Virus record (IMG/VR): IMGVR_UViG_3300046657_000041
Coordinates: 1-22,801 of that record
DNA from: a virus
DNA: 22,801 nucleotides
Direction: 5' to 3' (one strand)
Part shown: positions 1-18,001 of the stretch, in pieces
Layout: each line of letters begins with the position of its first letter
Numbering within the stretch: position 1 is the stretch's first letter
Notes under the pieces: model-generated
Told to the model about the DNA's origin: nothing
What the model saw: the letters and a program-made list of their open reading frames with translations, nothing else
Database searches by the model: none
Program-made: the position numbers and the translations under genes

Positions 1-423
1 AGGCAGTACCGCAAGGCGCCGGCGTCGACGTCGAGCCCGAAGTCTGGGCCGGTGGCTCCGTCGACGCCGGCGCCGAAGCGGGAGTTGTCTGCGCAGGAGC
101 GCTGCTGGGACTTCCTCGATCACATGGCCGTCGAGCACTGCACCGAGCTCGGGCTGATTCGCGAGAGTCAGCAACGGCCGAAGCTCTGCAACCCGAAGCT
201 CACCGCCGCCTGCACCGCCGCGGGCATCGTCGACTTCCTCCTCGACGGCAAGGCGTACACGCGGTGGGAGCACCTCGGGGTGCTGTTCGCGCTCTACCTG
301 AAGGACGAGCTCGGGCGCGTCGACCGGGACGGTCAGCTGCGCACGCCGCCCTGGCCCATCGAGCTGTTCCTCTCTGAAAACGTGCTCCGGCGGTTCAAGG
401 CGCAGGAGGAGAAAGCCGCGTGA
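1..423 (+). CDS. Partial hypothetical protein upstream of the helicase (5' end outside window)
   Basis: The frame is open from the first base of the window to a TGA at 421-423, so the gene most likely starts upstream; a GTG at 52 is an internal alternative. About 140 residues are visible. The first 30 are a Pro/Ser/Thr/Lys-rich, probably disordered linker. The rest is compact and mixed, with a Trp-rich C-terminal half (motifs YTRWEHLGVLFALYLKDEL and TPPWPIELFL). No catalytic motif or zinc site is recognisable. The stop overlaps the helicase start (GTGA), so the two are translationally coupled. A gene directly before a phage DnaB-like helicase is often a replication initiator or helicase loader, so this may be the C-terminal end of such a protein. 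That role rests on position only; I do not recognise the family. Confidence 0.6.
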   Translation, partial: RQYRKAPASTSSPKSGPVAPSTPAPKRELSAQERCWDFLDHMAVEHCTELGLIRESQQRPKLCNPKLTAACTAAGIVDFLLDGKAYTRWEHLGVLFALYLKDELGRVDRDGQLRTPPWPIELFLSENVLRRFKAQEEKAA

Positions 424-1979
424 GCCGCCGGGCTGAGACCGACCTCGAACGCGAGGGGCTCGCCGTGGGCGCCCTGCTCTCGGCCGCCGACCTCGAGAAG
501 GCCCGCCGCATCGCCGCTGTGCTTCCCCCACCCGGGGCGTTCCTCGATCAGACCGCGCGCGCCGCGGTGACGCTCTCGCTCGACCTGCTCTCGCGCGGCG
601 AGCTGCCGTCGGCCGCGACCGTCTTCACCGCCGGCACCGCGTCGACGAACCTCTTCACTCCCGAGGACCGCGAGCGGCTCCGGAGCTGGCAGATCGACTC
701 CGAGCTGACCGACCAGGAGCTCGTCGTCGTCGGCCGGCACCTGAACCTCGCCGCACGGGTGCGCCGCATCGCGGCCACCTTCAAGGCGCTCGGCGTGGCC
801 CTCGAGCGCGGCACCGACAAGGAGGGCCGCCCGTTCGGACCCGGCGAGGCCCGCGTCTGGTTCGATCAGCTGGCCCGCGCCTACAACACGGCGCACGCCT
901 CGGGCATCAGCGGCTCCGACGCTGTCGACCTCACCCGCGCGCGGCACGCCGCCGAGCTCGCCGAGGGCCGCTCGGGCTTCCTCAAGACGGGCATCGGCAT
1001 CTTCGACAACATCTTCGGTGGCTACCCGAACAAGCTCGCGGTGCTCGTCGGCGCCGGCGGCGCGGGCAAGTCGACGGTGCTCGGCACGCAGCTCGACCTG
1101 CACCAGGCCTTCGGCATCCGCTCCGTGCTCTCCTCGATGGAGGACAACCACGAGTGGCCGGTCATCCGGCACGTGGCGCTGATGCTCGGGCTGAAGTACC
1201 GCGAGACGTACTCGGGCCCGTTCCCCGATGAGCAGAAGGCGCGCGACGCCGAGGGCTTCCTCAAGGAGCGCTGGAAGAACCTCACCATTCTCTCGAAGCG
1301 CGACGGCCGCACCGTCGACGAGCACCTGCAGCTGTGGGCCCAGTACATCGTTCAGCACGGCGCGCGCGTCTTCTACATCGACAACCTCACCACCATCGAT
1401 CACCAGCAGCGGCCGCGCGAGCAGAAGCACGATGCGGCCGCGCGCACCGTCGAGAAGCTCGCCGAGTTCGCAGACCTCTGGCGGGTGACGGTCATCGCCC
1501 TCGCCCACACGAAGAACGACTGGTTCGTTCAGACGAAGGGCCAGGAGTGCCCGACGCTGAACGACGTCGCCGACACCGGCGGCGGCATCGCGTCCGAGCG
1601 TTACGCGCGCCTCGCGTTCGGCATCTGGTCCACGCGCGAGGGCGAGCTGCGCCTCACCTGCATCAAGAACATGGCCGAGGGAAAGCTGGCGATCGAGCGC
1701 AAGACGCTCGCCTTCGACGTGCACATCGACCAGGGCCTGCTCGACCCGGACTCCGGCCGTGAGGTGAACCTCGCGCAGGAGCAGCGCCTGAAGGCCGAGG
1801 CCACCGAGGCGACGAAGAAGGCGAGGCGGCAGTCGACCTTCGAGGAGAACAAGAAGCGCCAGGAGGCGTACCAGGCCGAGCAGGCGAAGAAGAAGGAAGC
1901 CGCGGCCGCTGCAGCACGGGCGAAAGAGCCGCTGCAGCACGAGCTGCTCGCCGCGCAGAACCCGAAGGAGCGCGCGTGA
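420..1979 (+). CDS. DnaB-like replicative DNA helicase (RecA-fold ATPase)
   Basis: 519-residue ATPase of the DnaB/RepA-like RecA-fold class, expected to unwind phage DNA at the replication fork as a hexamer. Residues about 10-160 form an N-terminal helical region that resembles DnaB only loosely. Residues 190-440 are the ATPase core: Walker A GAGGAGKST at 211-219, a catalytic-Glu-like segment SSMED at 238-242, Walker B FYIDNL at 318-323, a sensor-like segment ALAHTKN at 360-366, and ADTGGGIASERYAR at 384-397. Residues 450-505 are a charged Lys/Glu/Ala coiled coil, an unusual C-terminal tail. There is no primase zinc domain, so it differs from T7 gp4. It starts with GTG overlapping the preceding stop, and the next gene starts on its own stop, so it sits inside a coupled operon. 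Assignment to helicase is firm; the exact subfamily is not. Confidence 0.85.
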   Translation: MSRRAETDLEREGLAVGALLSAADLEKARRIAAVLPPPGAFLDQTARAAVTLSLDLLSRGELPSAATVFTAGTASTNLFTPEDRERLRSWQIDSELTDQELVVVGRHLNLAARVRRIAATFKALGVALERGTDKEGRPFGPGEARVWFDQLARAYNTAHASGISGSDAVDLTRARHAAELAEGRSGFLKTGIGIFDNIFGGYPNKLAVLVGAGGAGKSTVLGTQLDLHQAFGIRSVLSSMEDNHEWPVIRHVALMLGLKYRETYSGPFPDEQKARDAEGFLKERWKNLTILSKRDGRTVDEHLQLWAQYIVQHGARVFYIDNLTTIDHQQRPREQKHDAAARTVEKLAEFADLWRVTVIALAHTKNDWFVQTKGQECPTLNDVADTGGGIASERYARLAFGIWSTREGELRLTCIKNMAEGKLAIERKTLAFDVHIDQGLLDPDSGREVNLAQEQRLKAEATEATKKARRQSTFEENKKRQEAYQAEQAKKKEAAAAAARAKEPLQHELLAAQNPKERA

Positions 1980-2919: not shown

Positions 2920-3113
2920 GAGCGCGCTTCCGTCGAGCGGAGCGCACGCACGAGGGACACAGGCCTTTTCAGGTGCTCGTGCAATGCCCAGGGCAGCCGT
3001 CGCCGACGTGGTGCGCGTGCGACGGCTGGGTCGACGCGTACGCGAACGTGCACGCGCCAGGACTGATCATGCCGGCGTGGCCGCTGGTGTCGCTCGCCGC
3101 GGTGCAGCCGTGA
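2916..3113 (+). CDS. Small hypothetical protein (TTG start)
   Basis: 65 residues. The frame is open further upstream, but TTG at 2916 overlaps the previous stop (TTGA) and has a strong site GGAGG at 2906-2910 five bases before it, so this start fits the coupled layout of the operon. The protein is basic at its N-terminus (RARFRRAERTHEGHRPFQ), contains C30 and a C40-x-C42 pair (WCACDGWVDAY), and ends in a hydrophobic stretch. It resembles short phage proteins with an FQVLV/DGWV pattern but I cannot name a family. The next gene (resolvase) starts on its stop codon. Whether it is made depends on TTG initiation. Confidence 0.55.
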   Translation: MRARFRRAERTHEGHRPFQVLVQCPGQPSPTWCACDGWVDAYANVHAPGLIMPAWPLVSLAAVQP

Positions 3114-3517
3114 GCATCTCTCTCACCCTGCCCTTCCCGCCGTCGCTCAACGCGATGTACCGGGCCGGCATCAAGAACGCCTGCGCGCGGTGCCGCAAGA
3201 CGGCGATCCCGTTCACGTACCTCTCGGACGAAGCCGAGGCCTACCGCATGAGCGCGATGAACCTGCTCGAGCGCATGGGGCGGCCGCGCATTCTGAAGCC
3301 CGCCGAGGTGTGCCTCACGCTACACCTGTACCGCCCGCGCGCCGCCGGCGACCTCGACAACTACTTCAAGGGCATGCTCGACGCCCTGTCGGGCCACGCC
3401 GGCTACGAAGACGACTCACAGATCGCCGAGCTGCACGCGTACCGGCACGAGTCGAAAGAGCGGCCGCGCGCCGAGCTCGTCATCACCGACCTGAGCAAAC
3501 AGGGGTCGCTCCTGTGA
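3110..3517 (+). CDS. rusA: RusA-like Holliday junction resolvase
   Basis: 135-residue crossover-junction endonuclease of the RusA family, expected to resolve four-way junctions made during phage recombination and replication, using Mg2+. The N-terminus LTLPFPPSLNAMYR matches the RusA opening strand and 'P.p.N..yR' turn. The acidic catalytic cluster is seen as GDLDNYFKGMLDAL with D81, D83 and D91, followed by YEDDSQI with D101/D102, equivalent to the essential Asp residues of E. coli RusA. The C-terminus PRAELVIT gives the final strand. An unusual C25-x2-C28 pair lies in the insert after the first strand. The GTG start overlaps the previous stop. Length is close to the family norm (about 120-140). 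Confidence 0.9.
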   Translation: MSISLTLPFPPSLNAMYRAGIKNACARCRKTAIPFTYLSDEAEAYRMSAMNLLERMGRPRILKPAEVCLTLHLYRPRAAGDLDNYFKGMLDALSGHAGYEDDSQIAELHAYRHESKERPRAELVITDLSKQGSLL

Positions 3518-3684: not shown

Positions 3685-3878
3685 TCCGCATCAACCTGTT
3701 GCACGTCGCCAAGACGAACACGTGGCTCGCCGAGTACATGGAAAATCAGGCGCGCGTGCTCAATGAAGGCGCGCGCATCCTGCGCGAGATCGCCGCGCGC
3801 AACCGGGCGCAGTTCGAGCTGAAGAGACCGTACCTCCGTCGCGCACAGCCGACGCTGCGCGAGGTCGACCACCCGTGA
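3681..3878 (+). CDS. Small hypothetical helical protein, 65 aa
   Basis: GTG start overlapping the previous stop, stop overlapping the methyltransferase start. Residues 8-50 look like one long basic amphipathic helix (VAKTNTWLAEYMENQ then ARILREIAARNRAQFELK). No cysteines, catalytic motif or membrane segment. Size and charge would suit a nucleic-acid-binding or partner protein, but that is a guess. Evidence for a real gene is the coupled start and stop at both ends. Confidence 0.55.
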   Translation: MIRINLLHVAKTNTWLAEYMENQARVLNEGARILREIAARNRAQFELKRPYLRRAQPTLREVDHP

Positions 3879-4432
3879 GCGCGCTCGTCGACGCCGGCGT
3901 GCTCGCGCGCTTCGGGCTGAACCCGAAGGACGAGCGCTACACCCGCGAGCCCACGAAGCTGTGGTGCCTCGCGAAGATGCAGCTCGAGCGCTTCACGCTC
4001 GACGTCGCCGGGTGCCCCGAGTCGCACCTGGCTCCGCGGTGGTTCGGACTGCAGCTCGACGGCAGCTTCATCGACGGCCTGTCCCGCGCCTGGAGTGGGG
4101 ACGTCTGGGCCAACGTGCCGTTCAGCATCTGGCACCTCTGGCTCCCGAAAGCATGGCTCGAGTGGAAACGCGGGCGCTGCAGCTCGATCTCGATGCTGCT
4201 GCCGAACGACAAGACCGAGCAAGAGCCCTGGCAGACCTGGGTCGCTGAGCGGCGCGATCGCCGCAGCTCGCCGCTTCGCACCTTCGAGATTCCTGGGCGC
4301 CCGCGCTTCGCGACGAACGAGACCGCCGGCGTGCAGCTCTCCCGCGGGAACGGCGGCAGCGCGTCGGGCTCGCCGTTCTTCGGTTGCTACCTGCTCGGAT
4401 GGCATCGCCGTTTTCTGCGAGGCTACGCGTGA
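3875..4432 (+). CDS. Dam-like phage DNA N6-adenine methyltransferase, with NVPF in the catalytic motif
   Basis: 185 residues with the plan of phage-type Dam methyltransferases, which transfer a methyl group from SAM to adenine N6 in DNA. Visible in order: a TREPTKLW segment (usual 'W.TP..l'), LDVAG at 42-46 as the SAM-binding strand, VWANVPFSIW at 77-86 in the place of the catalytic [ND]PP[YF] motif, SSISMLLPNDKTEQEPWQ at 103-120 as the following strand and loop, IPGRPRF at 139-145, and SPFFGCYLLGW at 166-176 as a late strand. The second residue of the catalytic motif is Val rather than Pro (codons AAC GTG CCG TTC). The enzyme may be active with a variant motif, have a changed target, or be inactive. 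It is the last gene of the overlapping early operon. Confidence 0.75.
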   Translation: MSALVDAGVLARFGLNPKDERYTREPTKLWCLAKMQLERFTLDVAGCPESHLAPRWFGLQLDGSFIDGLSRAWSGDVWANVPFSIWHLWLPKAWLEWKRGRCSSISMLLPNDKTEQEPWQTWVAERRDRRSSPLRTFEIPGRPRFATNETAGVQLSRGNGGSASGSPFFGCYLLGWHRRFLRGYA

Positions 4433-4453
4433 GCACTCGCTCCGAGCGCCCCT

Positions 4454-4499
4454 GTCCCTACGCCACGAGGCGGCACCCGTGCGGGTGTTCCCGAGGGAC
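4454..4499 (+). other. Nested inverted repeats in the gap after the methyltransferase
   Basis: The 118-base gap 4433-4550 has no gene. It contains an outer inverted repeat GTCCCT (4454-4459) with AGGGAC (4494-4499) enclosing a perfect 14-base dyad CACCCGTGCGGGTG (4474-4487). As RNA this could fold into a branched hairpin marking the end of the first operon; as DNA it could be an operator. It is followed by GTTTGTCTT rather than a true T-run, so a classical intrinsic terminator is not shown. Short dyads are common by chance in such GC-rich DNA. Confidence 0.3.
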
Positions 4500-4550
4500 G
4501 GGGGCGTTTGTCTTCCCCACCTGTTCAACCCGCAGCACCCCGGAGGCCGC

Positions 4551-5252: not shown

Positions 5253-5725
5253 TGCGAAAGCCGACTCCGTTCGCAGCAGATACGAAGGTCCCCGTCGCGC
5301 AGAGCCAGGCCGAGATCGAGGCGCTGGTGAAGGGCCGCGGGGCAGAGAGCTACATGCGCGGCGACGACCAGGGGCGGGCGGTCGTCACCTGGTCGATGCA
5401 TGACCGGCGCGTGATGTTCGAGCTCCCGCTCGAGCCGGTGAAGAAGGCCGCGAAGGAGTCGCAGTCGCGGGCCGACAAGCTCGAGCGGCAGCTGTGGCGC
5501 GCGCTGTACCTCTGCATCAAGGCGAAGCTCGTCAGCGTCGAGACCGGGGTCGAGAGCTTCGAGGATGCGTTCCTCGCGCAGCTCGTCGTGCCCACGAGCG
5601 ACGGTCGCGCCGGCCGTCTCGGTCGCCTCATGAAGGGCGCGATCGAGGAGGCGTACAAGAAAGGCACGGTGCCGAACTTCGGCTCGATGGGCCTGCTCCC
5701 GAGCGGCACGGAGAAGCCCGAGTGA
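5252..5725 (+). CDS. Conserved phage protein of unknown function, 157 aa
   Basis: ATG at 5252 overlaps the previous TGA; a GTG one codon earlier (5249) is an in-frame alternative. The sequence fits a family often annotated only as 'hypothetical' in phages: TKVPVAQSQAEIEALVKGRGA near residues 11-31, then a strand pair AVVTWSMHDRRVMFELPLEP, a Lys/Arg-rich helix ending RQLWRALYLCIKAKLVSVETG, and FEDAFLAQLVVP. This order (single-domain, about 130-160 residues) is characteristic. Its role is not known; it sits with early DNA-handling genes in many phages. Family recognition is from memory of the pattern. Confidence 0.75.
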   Translation: MRKPTPFAADTKVPVAQSQAEIEALVKGRGAESYMRGDDQGRAVVTWSMHDRRVMFELPLEPVKKAAKESQSRADKLERQLWRALYLCIKAKLVSVETGVESFEDAFLAQLVVPTSDGRAGRLGRLMKGAIEEAYKKGTVPNFGSMGLLPSGTEKPE

Positions 5726-6327
5726 ACGCGACCGCCTTCTACCGCGCGTTCTACCGTCAGCTCGGCCTGCAGCTCGGGCCCGAGCCCCGACTGCCGCCGC
5801 GGCTGCCGTCGCTCCGTGACAGCTGCTCGCGTGGCCACCCTGATGCGCAGTTCGGGGTGACGAACGCCGAGGGCTACCGGCGCTGCCGGAAGTGCCTCAG
5901 CGAGAACCAGATGCGGCACGCCAAGGCGAAGGCGGCCGCCGCTGCGCTGCGCACGAAGAAGCGCCCTCGGCGGCCGCGCCGGGTCAACCGGGAAAAGTCG
6001 AAGCCCCCGCCGAGTTTTCCCGCACAGCCGCCCACGAAGGTGCTCTCGCCCGACGAGTGGCTCGAGCTGCTGAAGGTGCGCGCCTCGGCGCCGCGGCCGC
6101 CGAAGCCGAAGCCGATCAGCCCGCCGGCTAAACGTGCTGCCCCCCCCCCAGGTTTCCGCCGTGGCTCCGATCGGAACTCCCGCCGCTGGAGGTGGAGTGA
6201 AGCCGCCTCGCGACCGCGAGCAGCTCGGCATCGGCTTCTGCAACGACTGCCGGCGCCGCGAGCCGCTCTTCCGGCACAAGCAGCTCGCGCTCTGCCGCAA
6301 CTGCCACCCGTACGGAGCTGCGTGTGA
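5722..6327 (+). CDS. Zinc-binding protein (C..GHP...C..C type); frame probably broken at a 10-C run
   Basis: GTG at 5722 overlaps the previous stop. Residues 33-60 carry the signature C35-x3-H39 ... C55-x2-C58 with 'RGHP' and 'GYRRCRKC', a zinc ribbon common in phage HNH-type and related DNA-binding proteins. A Lys/Arg/Ala helix and a Pro-rich linker follow. As written the frame runs through ten Cs at 6140-6149 and ends at 6327, but after that run it becomes Arg-rich nonsense-like sequence. With one more C the protein would read RFPPWLRSELPPLEVE and stop at TGA 6198-6200, overlapping the next gene as GTGA exactly like its neighbours. The likely intended product is therefore 159 residues, ending at 6200. 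No HNH nuclease residues are seen. Confidence 0.6.
   Translation: MNATAFYRAFYRQLGLQLGPEPRLPPRLPSLRDSCSRGHPDAQFGVTNAEGYRRCRKCLSENQMRHAKAKAAAAALRTKKRPRRPRRVNREKSKPPPSFPAQPPTKVLSPDEWLELLKVRASAPRPPKPKPISPPAKRAAPPPGFRRGSDRNSRRWRWSEAASRPRAARHRLLQRLPAPRAALPAQAARALPQLPPVRSCV
6140..6149. repeat. Ten-cytosine homopolymer at a probable frameshift
   Basis: A run of ten C lies inside a gene whose frame fits its neighbours only if the run were eleven. Such tracts are prone to slippage in replication and to miscounting in sequencing, so this is either an assembly or read error, a natural length variant, or a programmed slippage site. Confidence 0.9.
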
Positions 6328-6554: not shown

Positions 6555-7099
6555 AGCGCCGTCCGAAGGGCCCGAAGCTCGAGATTGCCGAGAAGCTCCG
6601 CGCGCGCCGCGGCAAGAAGAAGACCTGGCAGCGCCGGCCGACGATGGCGCTCTGCCCCATGCCCGGCTGCGAGACGATGGTCGACCAGCCGATGTGCCCC
6701 GAGCACTGGCCGCTCGTCAGCCCCGACGTGCGCCAGGAGCTCGTCGCCGCCGTGCGCGCGCTGAAGTTCGCCGGCGGCCGCCGGCCGAAGGGCGAGCTCG
6801 GCGCGAAGGTGCTCGAGCTCTACCGCATCGCAATCACCGAGGTTCAAACCGCGCTGTACAAACGAGGTGCTGAGCATGGCTCGAAACACGTCGATGGCAA
6901 CGTCGCTGCAGTCCGTCCCCTTGTCGGTCTTCACCAAGAGCTTCCGCCCGCTGGGCAACAAGGTGGCGCTCAAGCGGCACCCGAAGGACAGCATGGCCGC
7001 GCCGGGCTCATCGCTCTACCGACCCGAGAGCAAGTTGAAGAACTCGGACAGGGCCACGGTCCTGGCGCTGGGCCCGGACTGCCGCCTGATGAAGGCTGA
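6551..7099 (+). CDS. Zinc-binding (C-x4-C-x8-C-x2-H) phage protein; C-terminal half overlaps the GroES-like gene
   Basis: ATG at 6551 overlaps the previous stop (ATGA). Residues 31-60 hold C35-x4-C40 ... C49-x2-H52 (CPMPGC then MCPEHWPLVS), the signature of a short phage zinc module usually followed by 'lp..lr..i'. Here SPDVRQELVAAVRAL follows. The first about 97 residues are convincing. From about base 6842 codon choice changes (GTT, CAA, AAA, CGA, GGT) and from 6876 the frame overlaps the GroES-like gene for 224 bases, where the other frame is clearly the coding one. The true end may be near 6873, where a TGA lies in another frame, which would require a one-base change; otherwise the C-terminal 75 residues are genuinely double-coded. 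Confidence 0.6.
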   Translation: MKRRPKGPKLEIAEKLRARRGKKKTWQRRPTMALCPMPGCETMVDQPMCPEHWPLVSPDVRQELVAAVRALKFAGGRRPKGELGAKVLELYRIAITEVQTALYKRGAEHGSKHVDGNVAAVRPLVGLHQELPPAGQQGGAQAAPEGQHGRAGLIALPTREQVEELGQGHGPGAGPGLPPDEG

Positions 7100-7220
7100 G
7101 GGTGTGAAGGTCGGCGCCACCGTCGTCGTCTCGCGCTTCGCCGACGGCGACCGCGACGTCGGCGGGGACAAGTTGATGATTCTCCCCGAGACGGAGATCA
7201 TGGCGCTCGAGGAGGGGTAA
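6876..7220 (+). CDS. GroES-like co-chaperonin (Cpn10 fold)
   Basis: 114 residues. From residue 24 the sequence follows GroES: RPLGNKVALKRHPKD (strand, cf. RPLHDRVVVKR), a loop SMAAPGSSLYRPESK (38-53) where GroES has the GroEL-binding mobile loop, then ATVLALGPDCR (60-70; cf. GEVVAVGPG), KVGATVVVSRFADGD (78-92; cf. KVGDKVLFGKY) and DKLMILPETEIMAL (98-111; cf. EEYLIMREDDILAI). The first 23 residues are an extra N-terminal extension. ATG at 6876 has CGAGG at 6863-6867; GTG at 6867 is an in-frame alternative. Phages such as T4 (gp31) use their own co-chaperonin with host GroEL to fold capsid protein, a plausible role here. The hydrophobic loop tripeptide is weak (SLY), so partner use may differ. 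Confidence 0.75.
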   Translation: MARNTSMATSLQSVPLSVFTKSFRPLGNKVALKRHPKDSMAAPGSSLYRPESKLKNSDRATVLALGPDCRLMKAEGVKVGATVVVSRFADGDRDVGGDKLMILPETEIMALEEG

Positions 7221-7701: not shown

Positions 7702-8136
7702 GTGAGCAGCGAGCAGCCCCCTGCGCCCCCGGCAAAGCCGAAGCGTCCACCCCGAACGAAGCTGAACGACCGCGAGCAGGCGTTCGCCGACGCATACCGC
7801 GGCAACAAGACCCAGGCAGCGATCGAGGCCGGTTACAGCGCGAAGAGCGCGCCCACCATCGGCTCGCGCCTGTACAAGAAAGTTCAGGTCCAGGCCGAGA
7901 TTCGACGGCAGCAGCTCGAGCGGCAGAGCGCTGCGGTGATGGACCGCGACGAGATGCAGCGGCTGTTCAGCTCGACCGCACGCGACGTGCACCTGCCCAT
8001 CCGCGAGCGCGTGAACGCGGCAGTCTGGCTCGGGAAGACTCGCGGCGACTTCAGCACCAAGCTCGAGCTCAAGGGCAACCTCACGGTGCACGACTTGGCG
8101 CGCGCCGCGATGGAGCCGGAGCCCGAGCCCGAGTGA
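7702..8136 (+). CDS. terS: Terminase small subunit
   Basis: 144 residues of the terminase small-subunit family (Terminase_2 type), which recognises phage DNA ends and hands them to the large subunit. After a Pro/Lys-rich N-terminus, residues 20-68 give the helix-turn-helix signature LNDREQAFADAY, NKTQAAIEAGYS and SRLYKKVQVQAEI. The C-terminal part LPIRERVNAAVWLGKTRGDF then LELKGNLTVHDLA and an acidic tail is usual for the family. GTG at 7702 has no strong ribosome site. The stop overlaps the large-subunit start (GTGA), the standard gene order. The 38 bases before it (7664-7701) hold no recognisable element. Confidence 0.88.
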   Translation: MSSEQPPAPPAKPKRPPRTKLNDREQAFADAYRGNKTQAAIEAGYSAKSAPTIGSRLYKKVQVQAEIRRQQLERQSAAVMDRDEMQRLFSSTARDVHLPIRERVNAAVWLGKTRGDFSTKLELKGNLTVHDLARAAMEPEPEPE

Positions 8137-9701
8137 GCGACGTCACGCCCGAGCAGCGGCGCTTCCTCGTCGAGGGCATGCGCCGGTGGCAGCACGAGCC
8201 TTGGACGTACGCGCGCCAGGTGCACGGCTTCGAGCCCGAGCCGTACCAGGACGAGTTCCTTCACGCGCTCGTCGGCCTCGACGTCGAGGGCAACCCGCTG
8301 CCCATCGACCAGGTGAAGCAGCGCCTGGCGCTCGTCGCGTGCAAGGGCCCGGGCAAGTCCGCGGTGCTGGCGATCGCGATGTGGTGGTTCAAGGTCTGCT
8401 TCCCCGACTCGAAGGTCGTCGCGACCAGCATCACCTTCCCGAACCTACAGGCGAACCTGTGGACCGAGCTCGCGGTGTGGCAGCGCCGCTCGCAGCTGCT
8501 GATGGCGGCGTACGAGCACACCGAAGAGACCATCTACGAGCGCGGCCGCAGCGACGTGTCCTTCATGCTGGCCCTGGCATGGGAGCGCAGCGCGAGCCCC
8601 GAGCAGATGGCGAACAACCTCGCCGGCCTGCACGCGAACTTCATCATGGCCGTGGCGGACGAGAGCGGCGGCATCTCTCGCGCTGCCTTCGGTGCGCTCG
8701 ACGGCGTGCTCGCGAACCACAACCCGGCCGAGGGCCGCATCGCCTACCTGCTCCAGGCGGGCAACCCGACCACGGTCAACGGGCCGCTCTACGACGCGGC
8801 GACGCGCAACCGCGCTCAGTGGTGGGTGAAGCACATCACGGCCGACCCCGATCGGCCGGATCGCGCACGGCGCGTGAGCATCGAGTGGGCGCGCGCGCAG
8901 ATTGCGATGCACCCCGGCGGCCGCGAGCACCCGTGGGTGATGGTGAACGTGCTCGGCGAGTTTCCCCCGGGCGGCGCGAACAACCTCATCGCCCTGGCCG
9001 ACTGCGAGAAGGCGAAGGCTCGGCGAGTCGACGCGGCGCTCTGGCAGCAGAGCCCTCGCATCATGGGCGTGGACCCTGCCCGCTTCGGCGACGACGAAAC
9101 GGCGCTGTGCTTCCGCCAGGGCGCGGTCATCTTCAAGTTCAAGTGGTTCAGGAACCAGGACCTGATGCAGAGCGCGGGGCAGATCGCCCTGAGCATCGAG
9201 CGGTGGAAGCCGCACGCGGTCTTCGTCGAAGTGAACGGGCTCGGCGCCGGCATCGTCGATCGCCTGGTGCAGCTGCGCTACGCGGTGACGGCCGTCGACA
9301 CGGGCTCGAAGGCGCTCGGCTTCAGCCAGGTGGAGTGGAAGCTGAAGAACCGCCGCGAGGAGTGCTGGTGGCAGCTCGAGGCCTGGCTGAAGCGCGGCTG
9401 CATCCCCGACGACTCGCAGTTCATCGCCGACATGGTCGGCCCCACCTACAAGTTCACGGCCGACAACACGATCGAGCTGGAGTCGAAGCGCGACATGAAG
9501 AAGCGCGGGCTGCCCTCGCCGAACCGCGGCGACGCTGCCGCGCTGACCTTCGCCGAACCAGTGCCACACACGGGCCTACGGTCGGTGGCGGATCGGATCG
9601 AGGAGGACCGCGTGATGCAGCAGCGCCAGCGTGGGCAGCACGGGCCGACTCCGGGCCGCGGCAACCACTACAACCCGATCGCGAAGAGGTCGAACCGGTG
9701 A
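8133..9701 (+). CDS. terL: Terminase large subunit (packaging ATPase/nuclease)
   Basis: 522 residues. It drives DNA into the prohead by ATP hydrolysis and cuts it with a C-terminal RNase H-fold nuclease. The ATPase part shows the adenine-region WTYARQVHGFEPEPYQDEF near 24-42, Walker A ACKGPGKS at 69-76 and Walker B FIMAVADE at 170-177. The nuclease part shows GVDPARFGDDET with D314, FVEVNGLGAG with E366, and NRGDAAALTF with D467, the three expected acidic positions. The last 40 residues are a basic, Gln/Gly-rich tail. GTG start overlaps the small-subunit stop; the next gene starts on its own stop. Length is normal for the family. Confidence 0.93.
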   Translation: MSDVTPEQRRFLVEGMRRWQHEPWTYARQVHGFEPEPYQDEFLHALVGLDVEGNPLPIDQVKQRLALVACKGPGKSAVLAIAMWWFKVCFPDSKVVATSITFPNLQANLWTELAVWQRRSQLLMAAYEHTEETIYERGRSDVSFMLALAWERSASPEQMANNLAGLHANFIMAVADESGGISRAAFGALDGVLANHNPAEGRIAYLLQAGNPTTVNGPLYDAATRNRAQWWVKHITADPDRPDRARRVSIEWARAQIAMHPGGREHPWVMVNVLGEFPPGGANNLIALADCEKAKARRVDAALWQQSPRIMGVDPARFGDDETALCFRQGAVIFKFKWFRNQDLMQSAGQIALSIERWKPHAVFVEVNGLGAGIVDRLVQLRYAVTAVDTGSKALGFSQVEWKLKNRREECWWQLEAWLKRGCIPDDSQFIADMVGPTYKFTADNTIELESKRDMKKRGLPSPNRGDAAALTFAEPVPHTGLRSVADRIEEDRVMQQRQRGQHGPTPGRGNHYNPIAKRSNR

Positions 9702-10144: not shown

Positions 10145-10398
10145 CGATGTGCTTCCAAGGGGCCGCGACGGCGACCATCAAGAACGATGCGACGCCTCTG
10201 CAGCAGGGGCGCAACCTGGTGCAGGTGCAGAAGGAGCGCGCGGGCACGCCGGCGGACGCTCCTGACTTCTCCGACAACCTGCTGCAGGAGGCGCGGAAGC
10301 GGCAGGCGGCGCAGCTGCTGCTCAAGTCGAACCGCCGCGACGCGCTGGCCAACAACCCCGGTGCTCCGGCGCCGGTCGACTACTCGCTGCTGAAGTGA
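10141..10398 (+). CDS. Small conserved podovirus protein between terminase and portal, 85 aa
   Basis: GTG at 10141 overlaps the previous stop (GTGA); ATG at 10147 is an in-frame alternative. The protein begins TMCFQGAA, has a Gln/Asn-rich first third and an Ala/Arg/Gln-rich helix LLQEARKRQAAQLLLKSNRRDAL, then NNPGAPAPVDYSLL. Many podoviruses carry a short protein here that begins 'MC(F/G)..' and contains an Arg-rich helix with 'RR.s.l...'; this fits in position, length and style, but sequence identity cannot be judged. A minor virion or assembly role is possible. Confidence 0.65.
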   Translation: MTMCFQGAATATIKNDATPLQQGRNLVQVQKERAGTPADAPDFSDNLLQEARKRQAAQLLLKSNRRDALANNPGAPAPVDYSLLK

Positions 10399-10406
10399 GG
10401 TGACGC

Positions 10407-12140
10407 TTGGCGTCCGAGTCCTACAGCAGCGTGCAGGCCGAGACGGGCGATGCCCGTCAGCGCCTCATGCTGTCGTGGGAGTCGCTCAAGCAGCAGCGCC
10501 GCTCGTGGGAGCCGGTGTGGCGCGACCTGGTCGAGCACGTGCTGCCCGACGCGGGGCGCTTCCTCCTCAGCGACAAGCTGCGCGCCGGCGAGCGGCACGA
10601 CCTCGAAATCATCAACGGCACCCCGACGCGCGCGTGCCGCGTGCTCGCCGCCGGCATGATGGCGGGCATCACCTCGCCGGCGCGGCCGTGGTTCCGGGTG
10701 ACGACGCCGGACCCGAACCTCGCTGAGGTGGGCGGCGTGCGGCTCTGGCTCGCCGAGGTCGAGGACCGCATCCGCCAGGCCCTCGCGCGCTCGAACATCT
10801 ACAAGGTGCTGTCGAAGCTCTACTACGACCTCAGCACCTTCGGGCAGTGCCCCATCTTCGTGGAGGAGGACGCAGACGACATTCTGCGCGCCTCGCTGTA
10901 CCCCATCGGCAGCTACTGCCTCACCTCGAACGCGGCCGGTCGCGTCGACGGGCTCTGGCGCGAGTGCGGCATGACGGTGCGGCAGCTCGCCCAGCGCTTC
11001 GGCACCGCGAAGCTGTCCGCGGCCACGCGCTCGAAGGTGCGCAGCGCCGCGCGGCAGGAAGACTGGGTCGACCTGCTGCACGTCGTCACGCCGCGGGCAG
11101 CTGGTGACCGCAAGGGCTACGGCGGCCGCGGCATGCCGTGGAAGAGCTGCTGGCTCGAAATCAACGCGGCGAAGACGGACGGAATCCTCGGCGAAGGCGG
11201 CTTCGAGGAGTTCCCCGTGATGGCCCCGCGGTGGGAAACCACGGGCGAGACCGTCTACGGCGTGGGCAACCCGGGGCGCGTGGCGATCGGCGACTGCAAG
11301 CAGCTGCAGCTGATGGAGTCGCGGAAGCTGCAGCTCATCGAGAAGCTGGCGGACCCGCCGATGAACGGGCCCTCGAGCATGCGCATGGAGCGGGTGAGCT
11401 TCATGCCGGGTGACGTCAACTACGTCACCGGCGCTCAGGCCCATCAGAAGTTCGAGCCCGCGTACGAGGTGCACCCTCAGGCGCTCCCCGGCCTGCGCGA
11501 GGAGCTGCGCGCGGTGCAGGAGCGCATCAACGGCGCGTACTACGCGGACCTGTGGCTGATGTTCGCCGAGGCCGACGCCGGCCAGCCCATCACCGCGCGC
11601 GAGGTGGCCGAGCGGCACGAAGAGAAGATGCTGCAGCTCGGGCCCGTGATGGAGAACCTCGAGGACGAGCTGCTCGACCCGCTCATCGACCGGGTCTTCG
11701 GCATTCTCCTGCGGAACGGCTACCTGCCGCCGCCTCCCCCGGAGCTCGAGGGCGGGGAGCTGCGCATCGAGTACATCTCGATGATGGCCCAGGCGCAGAA
11801 GATGCTCGGCACCGCGAACATCGAGCGCGTGCTCGGCACGCTGGGCAACGTCGCCGGCGTCGACGCGTCGGTGCTCGACAACTTCGACCTGGACGAGACG
11901 ATGCGCGTGTACGCCGACAACATGGGCGTCGCGCCGAAGATTGTTCGCACGAAGCGCCAGGTCGAGCGCATCCGTGCGCAGAAGGCGCTGGCGGCGCAGC
12001 AGCAGCAGAAGGCTCAGGCCATGGCCTCCGCGGCCGAGGGCGCGGCCGTGCTCGCGAGCGCGGACATGGAGGGCCGGAACGCCCTCACGCAGCTCGTGAA
12101 GAACGCGGGCCCGGTCGTCGCGGCTCAGGCGCGGCGCTGA
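10407..12140 (+). CDS. Portal / head-to-tail connecting protein (T7 gp8-like)
   Basis: 577 residues of the bacteriophage head-to-tail connecting family, the dodecameric portal of podoviruses through which DNA enters and leaves. Early motifs RRSWEPVWRDLVEHVLPDAGRF (31-52) and CRVLAAGMMAGITSPARPWF (77-96) are typical, followed by LYYDLSTFGQCPIFVEED, GETVYGVGNPGRVAIGDCKQLQ, PPMNGPSSM and ITAREVAERHEEK, the conserved late helix. The C-terminal 60 residues are a Gln/Ala/Lys-rich helix. The start is TTG at 10407, with AGTGAGG ending six bases before it; no ATG or GTG fits in frame. It follows the terminase genes directly, as in related phages. Confidence 0.92.
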   Translation: MASESYSSVQAETGDARQRLMLSWESLKQQRRSWEPVWRDLVEHVLPDAGRFLLSDKLRAGERHDLEIINGTPTRACRVLAAGMMAGITSPARPWFRVTTPDPNLAEVGGVRLWLAEVEDRIRQALARSNIYKVLSKLYYDLSTFGQCPIFVEEDADDILRASLYPIGSYCLTSNAAGRVDGLWRECGMTVRQLAQRFGTAKLSAATRSKVRSAARQEDWVDLLHVVTPRAAGDRKGYGGRGMPWKSCWLEINAAKTDGILGEGGFEEFPVMAPRWETTGETVYGVGNPGRVAIGDCKQLQLMESRKLQLIEKLADPPMNGPSSMRMERVSFMPGDVNYVTGAQAHQKFEPAYEVHPQALPGLREELRAVQERINGAYYADLWLMFAEADAGQPITAREVAERHEEKMLQLGPVMENLEDELLDPLIDRVFGILLRNGYLPPPPPELEGGELRIEYISMMAQAQKMLGTANIERVLGTLGNVAGVDASVLDNFDLDETMRVYADNMGVAPKIVRTKRQVERIRAQKALAAQQQQKAQAMASAAEGAAVLASADMEGRNALTQLVKNAGPVVAAQARR

Positions 12141-12161: not shown

Positions 12162-12395
12162 ATGGGCTTCCGAATCGTCGACATGGGCAGGCAGACCGTC
12201 ACCGACGCCGACGGCGCAACGTTCGAGGCGTACGTCTCGCAGATTCACTGCACGAAATGCGACGAGAAGGTCGCCGAGACGAAGGTCGATACCGCGCTCG
12301 CGGCGCTCGGCGGTGACGCGCCCGGCTTCCGCGCGGCCGAAGACCGGGCGTTCATTCGCTCGGCCGAGCAGGCTCACCGCTGCCCGAAGGGCTGA
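12162..12395 (+). CDS. 77-aa Cys-containing hypothetical protein
   Basis: ATG at 12162, probably read from a leaderless transcript. Residues 1-28 look like two strands (FRIVDMGRQTVTDADGATFEAYVSQIH). C30-x2-C33 (CTKC) and the late H72-x-C74 could hold one zinc ion. The segment between is an Ala-rich helix. It lies between the portal gene and the zinc-ribbon-duplicated gene. It has no recognised family; the separate promoter suggests it can be expressed independently of the late operon. Confidence 0.65.
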   Translation: MGFRIVDMGRQTVTDADGATFEAYVSQIHCTKCDEKVAETKVDTALAALGGDAPGFRAAEDRAFIRSAEQAHRCPKG

Positions 12396-12425: not shown

Positions 12426-13445
12426 ATGAGCACCGAGAACGTCTGGAATGAGGCGCGGCTGCTGCGCGAGGTGGTGGCCGCGGTCATCAACCACCTGGCC
12501 GCCGGCGGGCACGTGGTGCGGAACGACCGGTTCTTCAAAGACCTGCGCCGCGTGCATCGCGAGTCGCGCGACCTGCAGCAGCGCATAGAGCAACACCCCG
12601 AGTACCGCCAGCTGGCACACTGGCAGAACGTCGCCTGCTGCATGGCGTTCTTCGCCGGCCTGATGCAGGGGAAGATGCAGGGCACCTGGTTGACGGTGCT
12701 CGACTCGCTGCTCGAGGTCGGCGGGGAGCAGGTGACGTCGTTCGCGATTTCGATCGCAACCGAGCTCGGCATCGAACTGCGCGAGTCGCACGACGGCGGG
12801 AAGAGCTGGGTGCCGATGCGTGAGTTCCGGCTGCAGCTTGAGCAGATACGAGACGACGAACTCTTCCGCGAGCTCCAGCGCCGCGGCTACCGGTACCGCG
12901 ACGGCGTGCTCGAGAAGCTGCAGTCCTCGGGGGTGATGCCGCGCGAGCCGTTCACGCCGGCCGCCGGCGAGCGTGTTGTGCACCTGCTCGTGCGCGATCC
13001 GGCCTTCCGCGAACGCGTCGCATGCGGCGCCGCGGGGTGGCCGCACCTGGCCCGCACGCAGAACCGCCAGGACGTGACCTGTGGGGCGTGCCGCATCTGG
13101 TCGGAGCCGCGGCAGCCAACGCTGCTCGATCACCTCGAGGCCGCCGAGGGGCGCACCGATCCCGCGGTCGCCGCGGTGATCGAGCAGCTTGCGCAGCAGG
13201 TCCCGCCCGACCTGGAAGACGAGGCACGGCGCGAACGAACACGACGTACCCCCGTGCTCGAGCAGACCGACGCCGCCGCGGTGCACGCCGAGCTCTACAA
13301 CCCGGACCGCAACGTGCCCCAGACGCTGTGCGGCGCCACGGGGCGCACGGCCCCGCCGCGTGCTGGGGTCGCGATCACGTGCCGCGTGTGCCTCGCGAGG
13401 CTCGGCTCGAGCACCCCGGTGGCGTCGCGCCCGTTCGCGCCCTGA
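12426..13445 (+). CDS. 339-aa hypothetical protein with two C-terminal zinc-ribbon-like repeats
   Basis: ATG with GGGAGA at 12411-12416 in the recurrent leader; a TACGTT (12398-12403) could be a -10. The N-terminal 160 residues are mostly helical with an aliphatic stretch VACCMAFFAGLMQGKMQGTWLTVLDSLL (69-96). The C-terminal half carries two copies of one motif: H186 ... C200-G ... C219-x2-C222 and H287 ... C302-G ... C319-x2-C322, the 'VH......lCG.....vTC..C' pattern of small zinc ribbons in phage and actinobacterial proteins. They are separated by a charged, Pro-containing linker. The function is unknown. Position after the portal but before the non-coding block suggests an accessory gene. 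Confidence 0.7.
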   Translation: MSTENVWNEARLLREVVAAVINHLAAGGHVVRNDRFFKDLRRVHRESRDLQQRIEQHPEYRQLAHWQNVACCMAFFAGLMQGKMQGTWLTVLDSLLEVGGEQVTSFAISIATELGIELRESHDGGKSWVPMREFRLQLEQIRDDELFRELQRRGYRYRDGVLEKLQSSGVMPREPFTPAAGERVVHLLVRDPAFRERVACGAAGWPHLARTQNRQDVTCGACRIWSEPRQPTLLDHLEAAEGRTDPAVAAVIEQLAQQVPPDLEDEARRERTRRTPVLEQTDAAAVHAELYNPDRNVPQTLCGATGRTAPPRAGVAITCRVCLARLGSSTPVASRPFAP

Positions 13446-13470
13446 CGCAACCCCGCGAACCGTCGAGCCG

Positions 13471-13499
13471 TGATCCGCGGATCAGACCACGGTCGTGGT
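13471..13499. repeat. Two adjacent perfect 14-bp palindromes
   Basis: TGATCCGCGGATCA (13471-13484) and ACCACGGTCGTGGT (13486-13499) are each exactly symmetric and are one base apart, 25 bases after the stop of the zinc-ribbon protein gene. They could form tandem hairpins in RNA or two dimer-binding sites in DNA. There is no T-run, so an intrinsic terminator is not indicated. Confidence 0.6.
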
Positions 13500-13504
13500 G
13501 CCAG

Positions 13505-13580
13505 CTCACCGGCTCTAGACCTCCGGGTCTAGACCTCCGGCTCTAGACCCGGTGAAAACACCGGCTCTAGACCCGGTGAG
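13505..13580. repeat. Four-copy C[A/T]CCGG[C/G]TCTAGACC array with hairpin
   Basis: Copies of the 15-mer begin at 13507, 13521, 13535 and 13559: the first three at a 14-base period, the fourth after a 10-base insert. Each centres on TCTAGA. The insert makes a perfect hairpin CCGGTG-AAAA-CACCGG (13549-13564), and the whole array is bounded by CTCACCGG (13505-13512) and its reverse complement CCGGTGAG (13573-13580). This ordered design looks like an iteron or operator array. Confidence 0.75.
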
Positions 13581-13890
13581 TCGCGGCTCCCGGGCCGCAT
13601 GATCCTCCGATCGCGATCGTGCAACCCCGCGGCGATCGCGTATGACATTTCGATCTCTTGACAGGCTCGTCGCGCATCGGCAAAAGCGTTCGGCCTCGCG
13701 CGGGCGCGCGTGCGCCGCATCGGGTGTTCCCAGCGACCGGCACAAGCAGAGCCTGCATCGCGACCCTCCCTGTAGAGAACCCGACGCCGGCGGCTTCTGG
13801 CCTTTGGTGACCCGGGTCTTCACCGACCGTGGGAGCGACCGCCGCGCCCGTCAACGTGAAGGGCCCTGGCCCCGCGCCGCGCGCTCGGAC

Positions 13891-13896
13891 TACAAC
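13891..13896 (+). promoter_or_regulatory. -10-like element TACAAC before the Bbp19-like gene
   Basis: TACAAC ends eight bases before the ATG at 13905. No good -35 is seen at the right distance. GGTGG at 13897-13901 is too close to the ATG (three bases) to be a good ribosome site, so a leaderless transcript is possible. Confidence 0.35.
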
Positions 13897-13904
13897 GGTG
13901 GTGC

Positions 13905-14234
13905 ATGGCGCCGAAGAAGCCCGCGCGGGCGATTCCGGTGGTGACTCCGCAGGAGCGGTTGCAGGCCCAGGCCGAATGGGCGCTTTCGACGGAGCAGGGG
14001 CGCGCCTGGCACTGGCACCTGCTCGACGAGGTGTGCCAGCTGAACGGGCAGACCTTCGCCGGCGAGAGCTCACACACGACGGCGTTCCACGCGGGGCGCC
14101 GCCAGGTGGGCATCGAGCTGATGCAGCTGCTGCAGCGCTTCGCACCACACCTGTATCGCCAGATGCTCGACGAGGCCCTGCATCGCTCGGAGCGGGCCCG
14201 GCCGGTGGCGCCGGTGAGGCACCCCGCGGATTAG
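13905..14234 (+). CDS. Bbp19-like phage protein
   Basis: 109 residues. The core LSTEQGRAWHWHLLDEVCQLNGQTFAGESSHTTAFHAGRRQVGIELMQLLQRFAPHLY (about 27-84) matches the Bbp19-like domain named after Bordetella phage BPP-1: 'T..Gr..l..LL...g......f......f..G.R.vg..l...l'. This small protein is regularly found beside portal and capsid genes of podoviruses; its exact role is not established. The N-terminus is basic and Pro-rich. ATG at 13905 follows the non-coding block and has its own possible -10, so it may open the head-gene transcription unit. Confidence 0.75.
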   Translation: MAPKKPARAIPVVTPQERLQAQAEWALSTEQGRAWHWHLLDEVCQLNGQTFAGESSHTTAFHAGRRQVGIELMQLLQRFAPHLYRQMLDEALHRSERARPVAPVRHPAD

Positions 14235-14264: not shown

Positions 14265-15032
14265 ATGAACTTCGCCACCCGAGCCCTGCTCCCCCTGCTC
14301 AGCATCTCGTTGAACGACGAGGGCGGCGACGGAGGCTCGGGCGGCGGTGCCGACGGAGCTGGTGCGGGCGAGAGCTCGAGCGGCGACGGGAAGGGCTCCG
14401 GCTCGAGCGGCGGCGAGGGCGACGCGCAGGCCGAGGGCGAGAAGAAGCCCGACGCCGACGCGAAGGGCGGCGCCGGCGACGACGCCGCGAAGAAGGCCGC
14501 GGCCGAGCAGCTCGGTGCGCTGACGAAGTCCTACGAGGGCTTCAAGCTGAAGATGCCCGAGCCCCTGAAGCTCGACGAGGCGACGGCGAGCTCGTTCACG
14601 AAGGCGGCGATCGAGGCCGGCGTGAAGCCGGAGCAGTTCCAGAAGCTCGCCGACGTCTTCGCCGGCTCCGAGCTCGGGCGCCTCAAGACGATCGCCGAGG
14701 GCCTGAAGAAGGAAATCGCCGAGCAGGACCGCCTGGTGCGCGCCGACAAGGAGCTCGCCGGCGAAGACGGCAAGCAGCTCGACGCGACGGCCGCGCTCGC
14801 CCGCAAGACGATGCAGAAGTTCGCGACCCCGAAGCTGCGCGAGCTGCTCAGGACGACCCGCCTCGAGACGCACCCCGAAATGCTGCGCCTGATGGCGCGC
14901 GTCGGACGCGGCCTCGCCGAGGACAAGACCGACGACGTTCGCGAGTCCGGCGGCAAGAAGGAGCTCTCCGCGAAGGAGAAGCTGAAGGCCCGCTACTCGA
15001 ACTCGCCCGAGCTCTTCAACACGGATTCCTGA
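14265..15032 (+). CDS. Scaffold-like capsid assembly protein
   Basis: 255 residues directly before the major capsid gene, the usual place for a scaffold. Residues 18-75 are an extreme low-complexity Gly/Ser/Asp/Glu/Ala/Lys tract. Residues 88-225 follow a common phage pattern: YEGFKLKMPEPLKLDEATASSF, AIEAGVKPEQFQKLADVFAG, DKELAGEDGKQLDATAALARKTMQKFATPKLRELL, ETHPEMLRLMARVGRGLAED. The C-terminus is a short basic helix (SAKEKLKARYSNSP), like the capsid-binding tails of scaffolds. ATG at 14265 lacks a strong ribosome site. Such proteins bind capsid subunits during prohead assembly and then leave. No protease triad is visible. Confidence 0.75.
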   Translation: MNFATRALLPLLSISLNDEGGDGGSGGGADGAGAGESSSGDGKGSGSSGGEGDAQAEGEKKPDADAKGGAGDDAAKKAAAEQLGALTKSYEGFKLKMPEPLKLDEATASSFTKAAIEAGVKPEQFQKLADVFAGSELGRLKTIAEGLKKEIAEQDRLVRADKELAGEDGKQLDATAALARKTMQKFATPKLRELLRTTRLETHPEMLRLMARVGRGLAEDKTDDVRESGGKKELSAKEKLKARYSNSPELFNTDS

Positions 15033-15060: not shown

Positions 15061-16050
15061 ATGGCCGTTCTCAACGCTACGATGCTCTCGCTGCTGGACT
15101 CGTACAGCCGGCGCGACCCCGACGGGAAAATCGCAGCCATCGTCGAGATCCTCACCCAGCGCACCGTGGTGATGGAGGACCTCGAGATGATCGAGGGCAA
15201 CACGAAGACGGGGCACGTCATCACGACGCGCACCGCTCTGCCGGCGATTCAGTACCGCCGGTACAACGAGGGCATCGCGGTCACGAAGAGCCGCACCGAC
15301 CAGGTGACCGAGTCGATCGGCAAGATGGCCGGCATGTCGAAGGTCGACGTCGAGCTCGCCGCGCTGCACGGCGACGGCGCCGCGTTCCGCGCGAGCGAGG
15401 ACGACGCCTTCCTGCAGAGCTTCGCGAACGAGGTCGAGACCGGCTTCTTCTACAACTCGACGCTGACGAGCCCCGAGAAGTGGCAGGGCCTCGCGCCGCG
15501 CTTCGCGTCGACGACGGGCCCCGGCGGCTCGCAGGTCATCAAGATGGACGCGTCGGCCTCGGGCGCGGACCAGACCTCGCTGTGGCTCGTCGGGCACGGC
15601 CCGAAGATGGTGCACGGCATCTTCCCGAAGGGCGAGATGCTGGGGCTCAACCCCACCGACGGCGGCAAGCAGCTCACCCGCGACGCGAACAACAACGAGT
15701 TCTGGGCCTGGGTGACGAGCTGGAGCTGGAACTTCGGCGTGTGCGTCGAGGACTGGCGCTACGTCGTCCGCGTCGCGAACATCGACATGGGCAACATCCT
15801 GGCGACGGGCTCGGCGCTCATCGACGCGATGATTCGCGGGCAGCGGAAGATCTTCAAGCCGGGCGCGAAGCTCGTCTGGTACGGGAACCGCGACGTCCTG
15901 ACGTTCCTCGAGCTGCAGGCGAAGAACGCGGTCACCGGTGCCGGCCCGCTCTCGTTCCGGGACATCGGCGGGCAGCCCATCCTTCACTTCCGCGGCGTGC
16001 CCATCAAGGAGACCGACGCCCTGCTCTCCACCGAGTCCCCGCTCAGCTGA
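15061..16050 (+). CDS. Major capsid protein (BPP-1/GP20053-like podovirus family)
   Basis: 329 residues. The sequence follows a major-capsid family of BPP-1-like podoviruses: DPDGKIAAIVEILTQRTVVMEDLEMIEGNTKTGHVITTRTALPAIQYRRYNEG near residues 19-70, SRTDQVTESIGKMAGMSKVDVELAALHGDGAAFRASEDDAFL around 77-118, then FFYNSTLTSPEKWQGLAPRF, and a late FWAWVTSWSWNFGVCVEDWRYVVRVANID. The fold is expected to be HK97-like. ATG at 15061 has GAGGT at 15048-15052. A strong hairpin follows the stop at 16057-16085. Together with the scaffold before and the cement protein after, the assignment is firm. Confidence 0.9.
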   Translation: MAVLNATMLSLLDSYSRRDPDGKIAAIVEILTQRTVVMEDLEMIEGNTKTGHVITTRTALPAIQYRRYNEGIAVTKSRTDQVTESIGKMAGMSKVDVELAALHGDGAAFRASEDDAFLQSFANEVETGFFYNSTLTSPEKWQGLAPRFASTTGPGGSQVIKMDASASGADQTSLWLVGHGPKMVHGIFPKGEMLGLNPTDGGKQLTRDANNNEFWAWVTSWSWNFGVCVEDWRYVVRVANIDMGNILATGSALIDAMIRGQRKIFKPGAKLVWYGNRDVLTFLELQAKNAVTGAGPLSFRDIGGQPILHFRGVPIKETDALLSTESPLS

Positions 16051-16056
16051 CCTGAC

Positions 16057-16085
16057 GCGGGCCGCGCTCGAGCTGGGCGGCCCGC
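16057..16085 (+). terminator. Strong hairpin just after the major capsid gene
   Basis: GCGGGCCGC (16057-16065) and GCGGCCCGC (16077-16085) are exact reverse complements around an 11-base loop that itself contains GCTCGAGC. The stem starts seven bases after the capsid stop codon. No T-run follows, so it may protect the abundant capsid mRNA or cause partial rather than full termination. Phages often attenuate transcription after the capsid gene. Confidence 0.5.
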
Positions 16086-17383: not shown

Positions 17384-18001
17384 GTGGCGCTGACCGTCGC
17401 CGACGTGGTGAACCGGGCGCTCTCGTACGTCGGGAGCCGGCTCTTCATCACCGACATCAACGAGGACTCTGAGCAGGCCATCGTCGCGAAGGTGCACTAC
17501 AGCGCCTGCGTCGCGATGGTCCTCGGCGAGCGCTGGTGGAACTTCGCCGAGGCCTCCGCGCTGCTGAACCGCCTGAGCATCACGGCGCCCAGCGGCTGGA
17601 GCTTCGCGTACCAGCTGCCCGCGGACCTGCTCCCCGGCAAGCAGCGCTTCATCTACCCCGGCGCCCGCCCCGGCCTCACCCGCGGCTCGAAGGATGAGGT
17701 GCCGTTCTCGCTCCGCTGGATTTCGGGCAGCGGCCAGACACTGCTCACGGATCACGAGAGCCCCGAGCTCTTGTACACGCGCCTCGTCACCGAGCTCGTG
17801 TACTGGCCGGAGAAGGCGGCCGACGCGCTCGCCTGGTGCCTCGCGCCGCGGCTCGCGCTCGGCCTCAATGTGGACCTGCGCAAGGGCGTGGCGTTCGAGC
17901 AGCAGTACCAGTCGATGCTCGAGCAGGCGATGGCCGACGACATGAACAGCGTGCGCCGCGGGCCCGAGCTGAGCTCGAGCTACCAGGCCGGCCGGGGGTG
18001 A
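17384..18001 (+). CDS. Tail tubular protein A-like (T7 gp11-like) adaptor
   Basis: 205 residues. The order of motifs fits gp11-like proteins that form the ring between portal and tail nozzle: ALTVADVVNRALSYVGSRLFI at the start, AKVHYSACVAMVLGERWWNFA (35-55; typical 'y...r...L....W.FA'), FAYQLPADLLPGKQRFIY, then ELLYTRLVTELVYWPEKAADALAWCLAPRLALGL, and a final helix with FEQQYQSMLEQAMADDMNS. GTG start after a 14-base gap. It is followed three bases later by the nozzle-like gene, the usual pairing. Confidence 0.82.
   Translation: MALTVADVVNRALSYVGSRLFITDINEDSEQAIVAKVHYSACVAMVLGERWWNFAEASALLNRLSITAPSGWSFAYQLPADLLPGKQRFIYPGARPGLTRGSKDEVPFSLRWISGSGQTLLTDHESPELLYTRLVTELVYWPEKAADALAWCLAPRLALGLNVDLRKGVAFEQQYQSMLEQAMADDMNSVRRGPELSSSYQAGRG

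Follow-up and report, generated by a model that had tools for sequence, protein, structure and literature searches.

In phage SPP1, predicted stem-loop terminators bound the late gene clusters, and non-coding stretches longer than 45 bp mostly contain promoters or terminators (PMC6316719). In the structural module of Bordetella phage BPP-1 (bbp21-bbp17), portal, (Bbp20), Bbp19, protease and capsid follow one another in this order, and bbp20 and bbp19 are just 42 nt apart. In the Caulobacter phages Jess A and RapA (Rauchvirus), accessory ORFs occupy the junction between the portal and Bbp19-like genes and are followed by a hairpin-rich spacer of 223 nt, which in Jess A contains a canonical terminator with a U-run. 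A prophage of Azoarcus sp. L1K30 (L219) likewise has an inserted gene and then, within a 96-nt spacer just before the Bbp19-like gene, a hairpin that forms a canonical terminator with a T-run.

The window, by which we mean the whole stretch of DNA analyzed here, is an IMG/VR virus record of 22,801 bp with a GC content of about 70%. Judged from its genes, it is a fragment of a BPP-1/epsilon15-like podovirus: a PF12236 portal, a PF25181 Bbp19-like protein, a protease and a gp7/Bbp17-type capsid protein are encoded in this order (Table 1), and tail genes are also present. Megablast against phages found no near relatives; the portal protein shares about 42% identity with its counterparts in the best annotated phages, and no more than 51% with those of viral contigs. 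Single-protein scans of viral contigs with the capsid protein and with P0001, the last ORF before the block described below, gave no match. The phage also encodes a GroES-like co-chaperonin (6894-7220, phrog_3188), and an HNH endonuclease stretch lies in the ORF at 5494-6327 (phrog_826, E = 2e-4), where codon usage is atypical.

Table 1. Genes and sequence features of the window, in order of position
Feature	Coordinates	Strand	Remarks
Helicase-primase	420-1979		
RusA-like gene	3110-3517		
Dam-like gene	3875-4432		
Terminase small subunit	7702-8136		
Terminase large subunit	8133-9701		
Portal (head-tail connector) gene	10407-12140	+	PF12236 / phrog_332
P0002, accessory ORF, first cassette gene	12162-12395	+	77 aa, cysteine-rich
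P0001, orphan accessory ORF, last before block	12426-13445	+	339 aa, CxxC near C-terminus
Non-coding block, 459 nt	13446-13904	.	Coding score negative in six frames; initial annotation covers first 195 nt
Perfect 14-bp palindrome	13471-13484	.	TGATCCGCGGATCA
6+2+6 inverted repeat	13486-13499	.	ACCACG-GT-CGTGGT, centre unpaired, not a perfect palindrome
Branched hairpin from array	13504-13582	+	Fold z -7.8
Array copy 1	13509-13522	+	CCGGCTCTAGACCT
Array copy 2	13523-13536	+	CCGGGTCTAGACCT, includes GGTCTAGACC
Array copy 3	13537-13550	+	CCGGCTCTAGACCC
Array copy 4	13561-13574	+	CCGGCTCTAGACCC, inside 20-bp near-palindrome CACCGGCTCTAGACCCGGTG (13559-13578)
Second hairpin, after array	13583-13598	+	GCGGCTCCCGGGCCGC, without U-tract; fold of 13580-13645
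Perfect 12-bp palindrome	13608-13619	.	CGATCGCGATCG
Short palindrome	13632-13639	.	GCGATCGC, one of 8 copies in the contig
AT-rich patch, tentative promoter	13640-13664	+	60% A+T, contains TTGACA (13658-13663)
Bbp19-like gene, first after block	13905-14234	+	PF25181 / phrog_528
Protease gene	14265-15032	+	phrog_458
Major capsid protein gene	15061-16050	+	phrog_212

Where BPP-1 has no such block, the window has a long non-coding one directly 3′ of the P0001 stop codon. Its layout is that of Jess A and L219, accessory genes followed by a hairpin-bearing spacer before the Bbp19-like gene, but the cassette is its own, its hairpins lack a U-tract, and neither of the other two spacers contains a repeat array. 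We propose, with a probability of about 0.5, that this block serves as a transcription boundary, separating an accessory cassette from the capsid genes at a hot spot of gene insertion. The initial annotation did not list a boundary of this kind among its candidates, yet it fits the comparative evidence best. Most likely it is a phage control region of a common type with an unusual sequence.

We searched 145 sequences, comprising the window and related loci, for portal, Bbp19-like and capsid genes. The distance from portal to Bbp19-like gene is near zero in most; more than 300 nt of extra sequence is found there in 36 of 109 loci, compared with 4 of 109 at the Bbp19-capsid junction, these counts being of loci that are not dereplicated, include the window and in part reflect a small Bbp20-type gene. 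The portal-Bbp19 junction is thus an insertion hot spot of BPP-1/epsilon15-like podoviruses, closed by a terminator in some members. The inserted gene encodes a GDSL hydrolase by Pfam in Jess A (L130) and shows a GDSL-like motif by eye in L219; other inserted genes resemble fibre- or decoration-type and glycosyltransferase-like proteins, by sequence appearance alone. In both Jess A and L219 a canonical terminator follows the last inserted gene, just before the Bbp19-like gene (junction intervals L130 2734-4882 and L219 3459-4940). Terminators number 2 in 19.6 kb versus 10 in 268 kb, an enrichment that is not statistically established. A spacer or terminator of this kind is missing from most of the relatives that carry insertions, and where other relatives have a spacer ahead of Bbp19, its fold is mostly not unusual. 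The comparison across relatives that the initial annotation had suggested produced no counterpart of the block itself, but did reveal the same junction closed by terminators in two relatives.

The block was initially described as a palindrome-dense, non-coding and regulatory-looking region at 13446-13640, between portal-side and capsid-side genes. We agree with this placement and character, with coding scores of -80 to -104 across all six frames, but the non-coding stretch continues to 13904. It is the longest clear non-coding spacer of the contig, followed by spacers of 190, 159 and 118 nt; a 1168-nt gap in the gene call overlaps the HNH-like ORF. A decayed gene was sought in the block by tblastn with 17,127 queries, and the weak, mostly low-complexity matches were not accepted.

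The density of palindromes, at first judged to exceed expectation, is not in itself exceptional. Both palindromes noted at 13608-13619 and 13632-13639 are present, as is the first of two reportedly adjacent perfect 14-base palindromes; the second is an inverted repeat with an unpaired centre. Perfect palindromes of this kind are ordinary here, because they are common in this GC-rich contig (29 of at least 12 bases), GCGATCGC recurs eight times, and other 195-nt stretches score higher than the block (28 at 2131 and 26 at 9616-9646 and 17866-17911, against 20). Under an order-2 Markov model, two such palindromes per 195 nt have P ~0.009 per stretch, so that chance alone would give about one in the ~117 stretches of the contig. 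What does stand out is a CTAG-centred repeat array and an excess of short inverted repeats (12 compared with an average of 1.65 in simulation, none of 1000 runs reaching 12), some of the 12 being nested readings of one repeat.

The array, correctly recognized from the outset as having four copies, is real and far beyond chance. Its unit CCGGsTCTAGACCy, written out as CCGG[C/G]TCTAGACC[T/C], recurs at spacings of 14, 14 and 24 nt. Every CTAG and every TCTAGA in the 22.8-kb contig lies within these copies, for a maximal-order expectation of ~9.6 CTAG and an observed four. The 16-bp array unit, allowing at most 3 mismatches, occurs nowhere else in the contig. The array can be described as two 20-bp near-palindromes CACCGGCTCTAGACCCGGTG with AAAA between them, the first of which is extended by two 14-nt repeats, and by its sequence the first unit looks as if copy 4 had been enlarged by two 14-nt slips.

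Outside the window, pairs of TCTAGACC were found in at least 120 stretches of other viruses, mostly as expected by chance and, among the matches listed, none seen in a related phage; a tighter array pattern matched two contigs, with one site apiece. Another viral contig (L268, 2138-2161) carries a single, apparently intergenic near-palindrome, ACACCCGGTCTAGACCCGGTGT, that resembles one array unit. Blastn of the block returned just a weak 33-nt match to two mycobacterial prophages and no match among plasmids, and Rfam gave nothing at gathering score, with only microRNA matches far below it. Because no relative carrying the block was found in the collections searched, we infer its function.

Alternatively, the block may be neutral or relic DNA with no present function, left over when the cassette was inserted and a single palindrome underwent slipped-strand duplication. 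We consider this unlikely. The resemblance of the first array unit to copy 4 plus two slips fits such an origin, as does a block without counterpart in the collections searched when most relatives have no such spacer. However, phage genomes seldom carry 459 nt that serve no purpose, the copies remain near-identical and retain both palindrome and pairing, and no convincing decayed gene lies in the block.

The predicted RNA fold of the array is a large branched hairpin, whose z-score is matched by no shuffled sequence. Its closing stem, CUCACCGG-UCUAGA / UCUAGA-CCGGUGAG, surrounds two inner hairpins; written in DNA letters, the outer stem CTCACCGG.TCTAGA / TCTAGA.CCGGTGAG encloses an 11-bp hairpin and GGTG-AAAA-CACC. 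A second hairpin follows. The array begins ~60 nt past the P0001 stop, so a stable GC-rich hairpin 3′ of a stop codon, as in an intrinsic terminator, is present. There is, however, no U-tract after the array, where GTCGCGGCTCCC follows instead, and a terminator scan found no terminator at the array. Both strands of the array fold, and the fold of its single-stranded DNA is likewise better than those of shuffled sequences, so its symmetry does not single out RNA. The remaining ~300 nt of the block show no special structure (fold z +1.1).

Strong folds also occur elsewhere in the window. Immediately 3′ of the Dam-like gene (4433-4525) is a Y-shaped hairpin in which a 17-bp closing stem surrounds two hairpins and is followed by UUUGUCUU. 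It has the same branched architecture as the array; within 4443-4510, its z-score is -3.4 on the + strand and -0.6 on the other, a strand specificity that arises from G-U pairs working only on the + strand. A 9-bp GC-rich hairpin without a U-tract lies a few bases past the capsid stop codon (16057-16085). These examples suggest that hairpins are a frequent feature of gene ends in this phage. A very strong fold also spans the start of the portal gene (10395-10490, z -5.4), where it possibly limits portal translation; a strong fold is therefore no proof by itself.

Under the boundary reading, transcripts would read through the cassette, whose two ORFs are preceded by gaps of just 21 and 30 nt and which has no canonical terminator. 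The array RNA would then form the branched hairpin and next the second hairpin, and these may terminate the upstream message or serve as a processing signal at its 3′ end. Capsid mRNA would start from a promoter somewhere in the ~300 nt that remain, perhaps near 13640-13664. This patch is the clearest AT-rich one in the block and holds the sole TTGACA of the contig, which proves nothing alone since about three are expected by chance; no recognizable -10 box accompanies it. The boundary reading is supported by the longest clear spacer, the array fold, the hot spot, the terminators of two relatives, the other gene-end hairpins and the SPP1 precedent. It is weakened by the missing U-tract and -10 box, the strand symmetry, folds inside genes, and the many relatives that have neither spacer nor terminator. 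Tidy 14-bp repeats also count against it, as a terminator does not require them.

In the main rival explanation, selection acts on a DNA motif rather than an RNA hairpin, and the four CTAG near-palindromes would bind a dimeric repressor or activator, from phage or host, that controls a capsid promoter. The repressor array named in the initial annotation stays a live option, though a less likely one than the boundary. In its favor, the copies are nearly identical, occur at a single non-coding location and hold all CTAGs of the contig, although CTAG avoidance in coding DNA accounts for part of that contrast, and the array sits ~80-150 bp upstream of the TTGACA patch. Spacings of 14, 14 and 24 bp, however, fall below or near the length of a single 16-20 bp site and leave neighbours out of helical phase, and no regulator gene was recognized in the contig, which is a fragment.

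The nearest known operators are the dre sites of DasR and NagR (GntR-HutC family), with the 16-bp DasR consensus A(G/C)TGGTCTAGACCA(G/C)T (PMC4398421). They share a TCTAGA core with the array, and copy 2 contains GGTCTAGACC, the core of this consensus, exactly. By contrast, the other three copies are one base off in this 10-bp core, the dre flanks are unmatched in all, and the array spacing is below one 16-bp site. It seems a long shot that tandem CTAG operators let a GntR/HutC-type regulator, of host or phage origin, uncouple capsid expression from that of the packaging genes; the structural operon of the phage would then in effect contain a switch tied to metabolism or lysogeny. The block offers a concrete case in which terminator, processing hairpin and operator array could be separated by simple tests.

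The other functions first suggested for the block, an origin or a packaging (pac), recombination or partition-like site, gained no positive support and are very unlikely. Repeats and palindromes occur at such sites generally, and nothing in the block is specific to them. Headful pac sites usually lie in the terminase small subunit gene, which here is 5 kb away, so that the block is not adjacent to terminase; our search for published packaging ends of BPP-1/epsilon15-like phages found nothing usable. The helicase-primase gene is at the opposite end of the contig, there is no clear GC-skew switch, and no recombinase or ParB-like gene was recognized among the predicted genes searched. Relatives, moreover, package and replicate without the block.

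The cassette upstream of the block is distinct from that of Jess A, whose genes, including the GDSL hydrolase, are unrelated to P0001; homology of P0001 to the Jess A lipase was considered and rejected. P0001 has no detected homologue and lies between conserved structural genes at the insertion hot spot, as a moron-type gene does. An AlphaFold model of P0001 made with no alignment was uninformative (pLDDT 37.5). Within P0002, a stretch of 28 aa matches residues 93-120 of this phage's major capsid protein at 61% identity, which gives the impression that part of the capsid gene was copied into the accessory gene.
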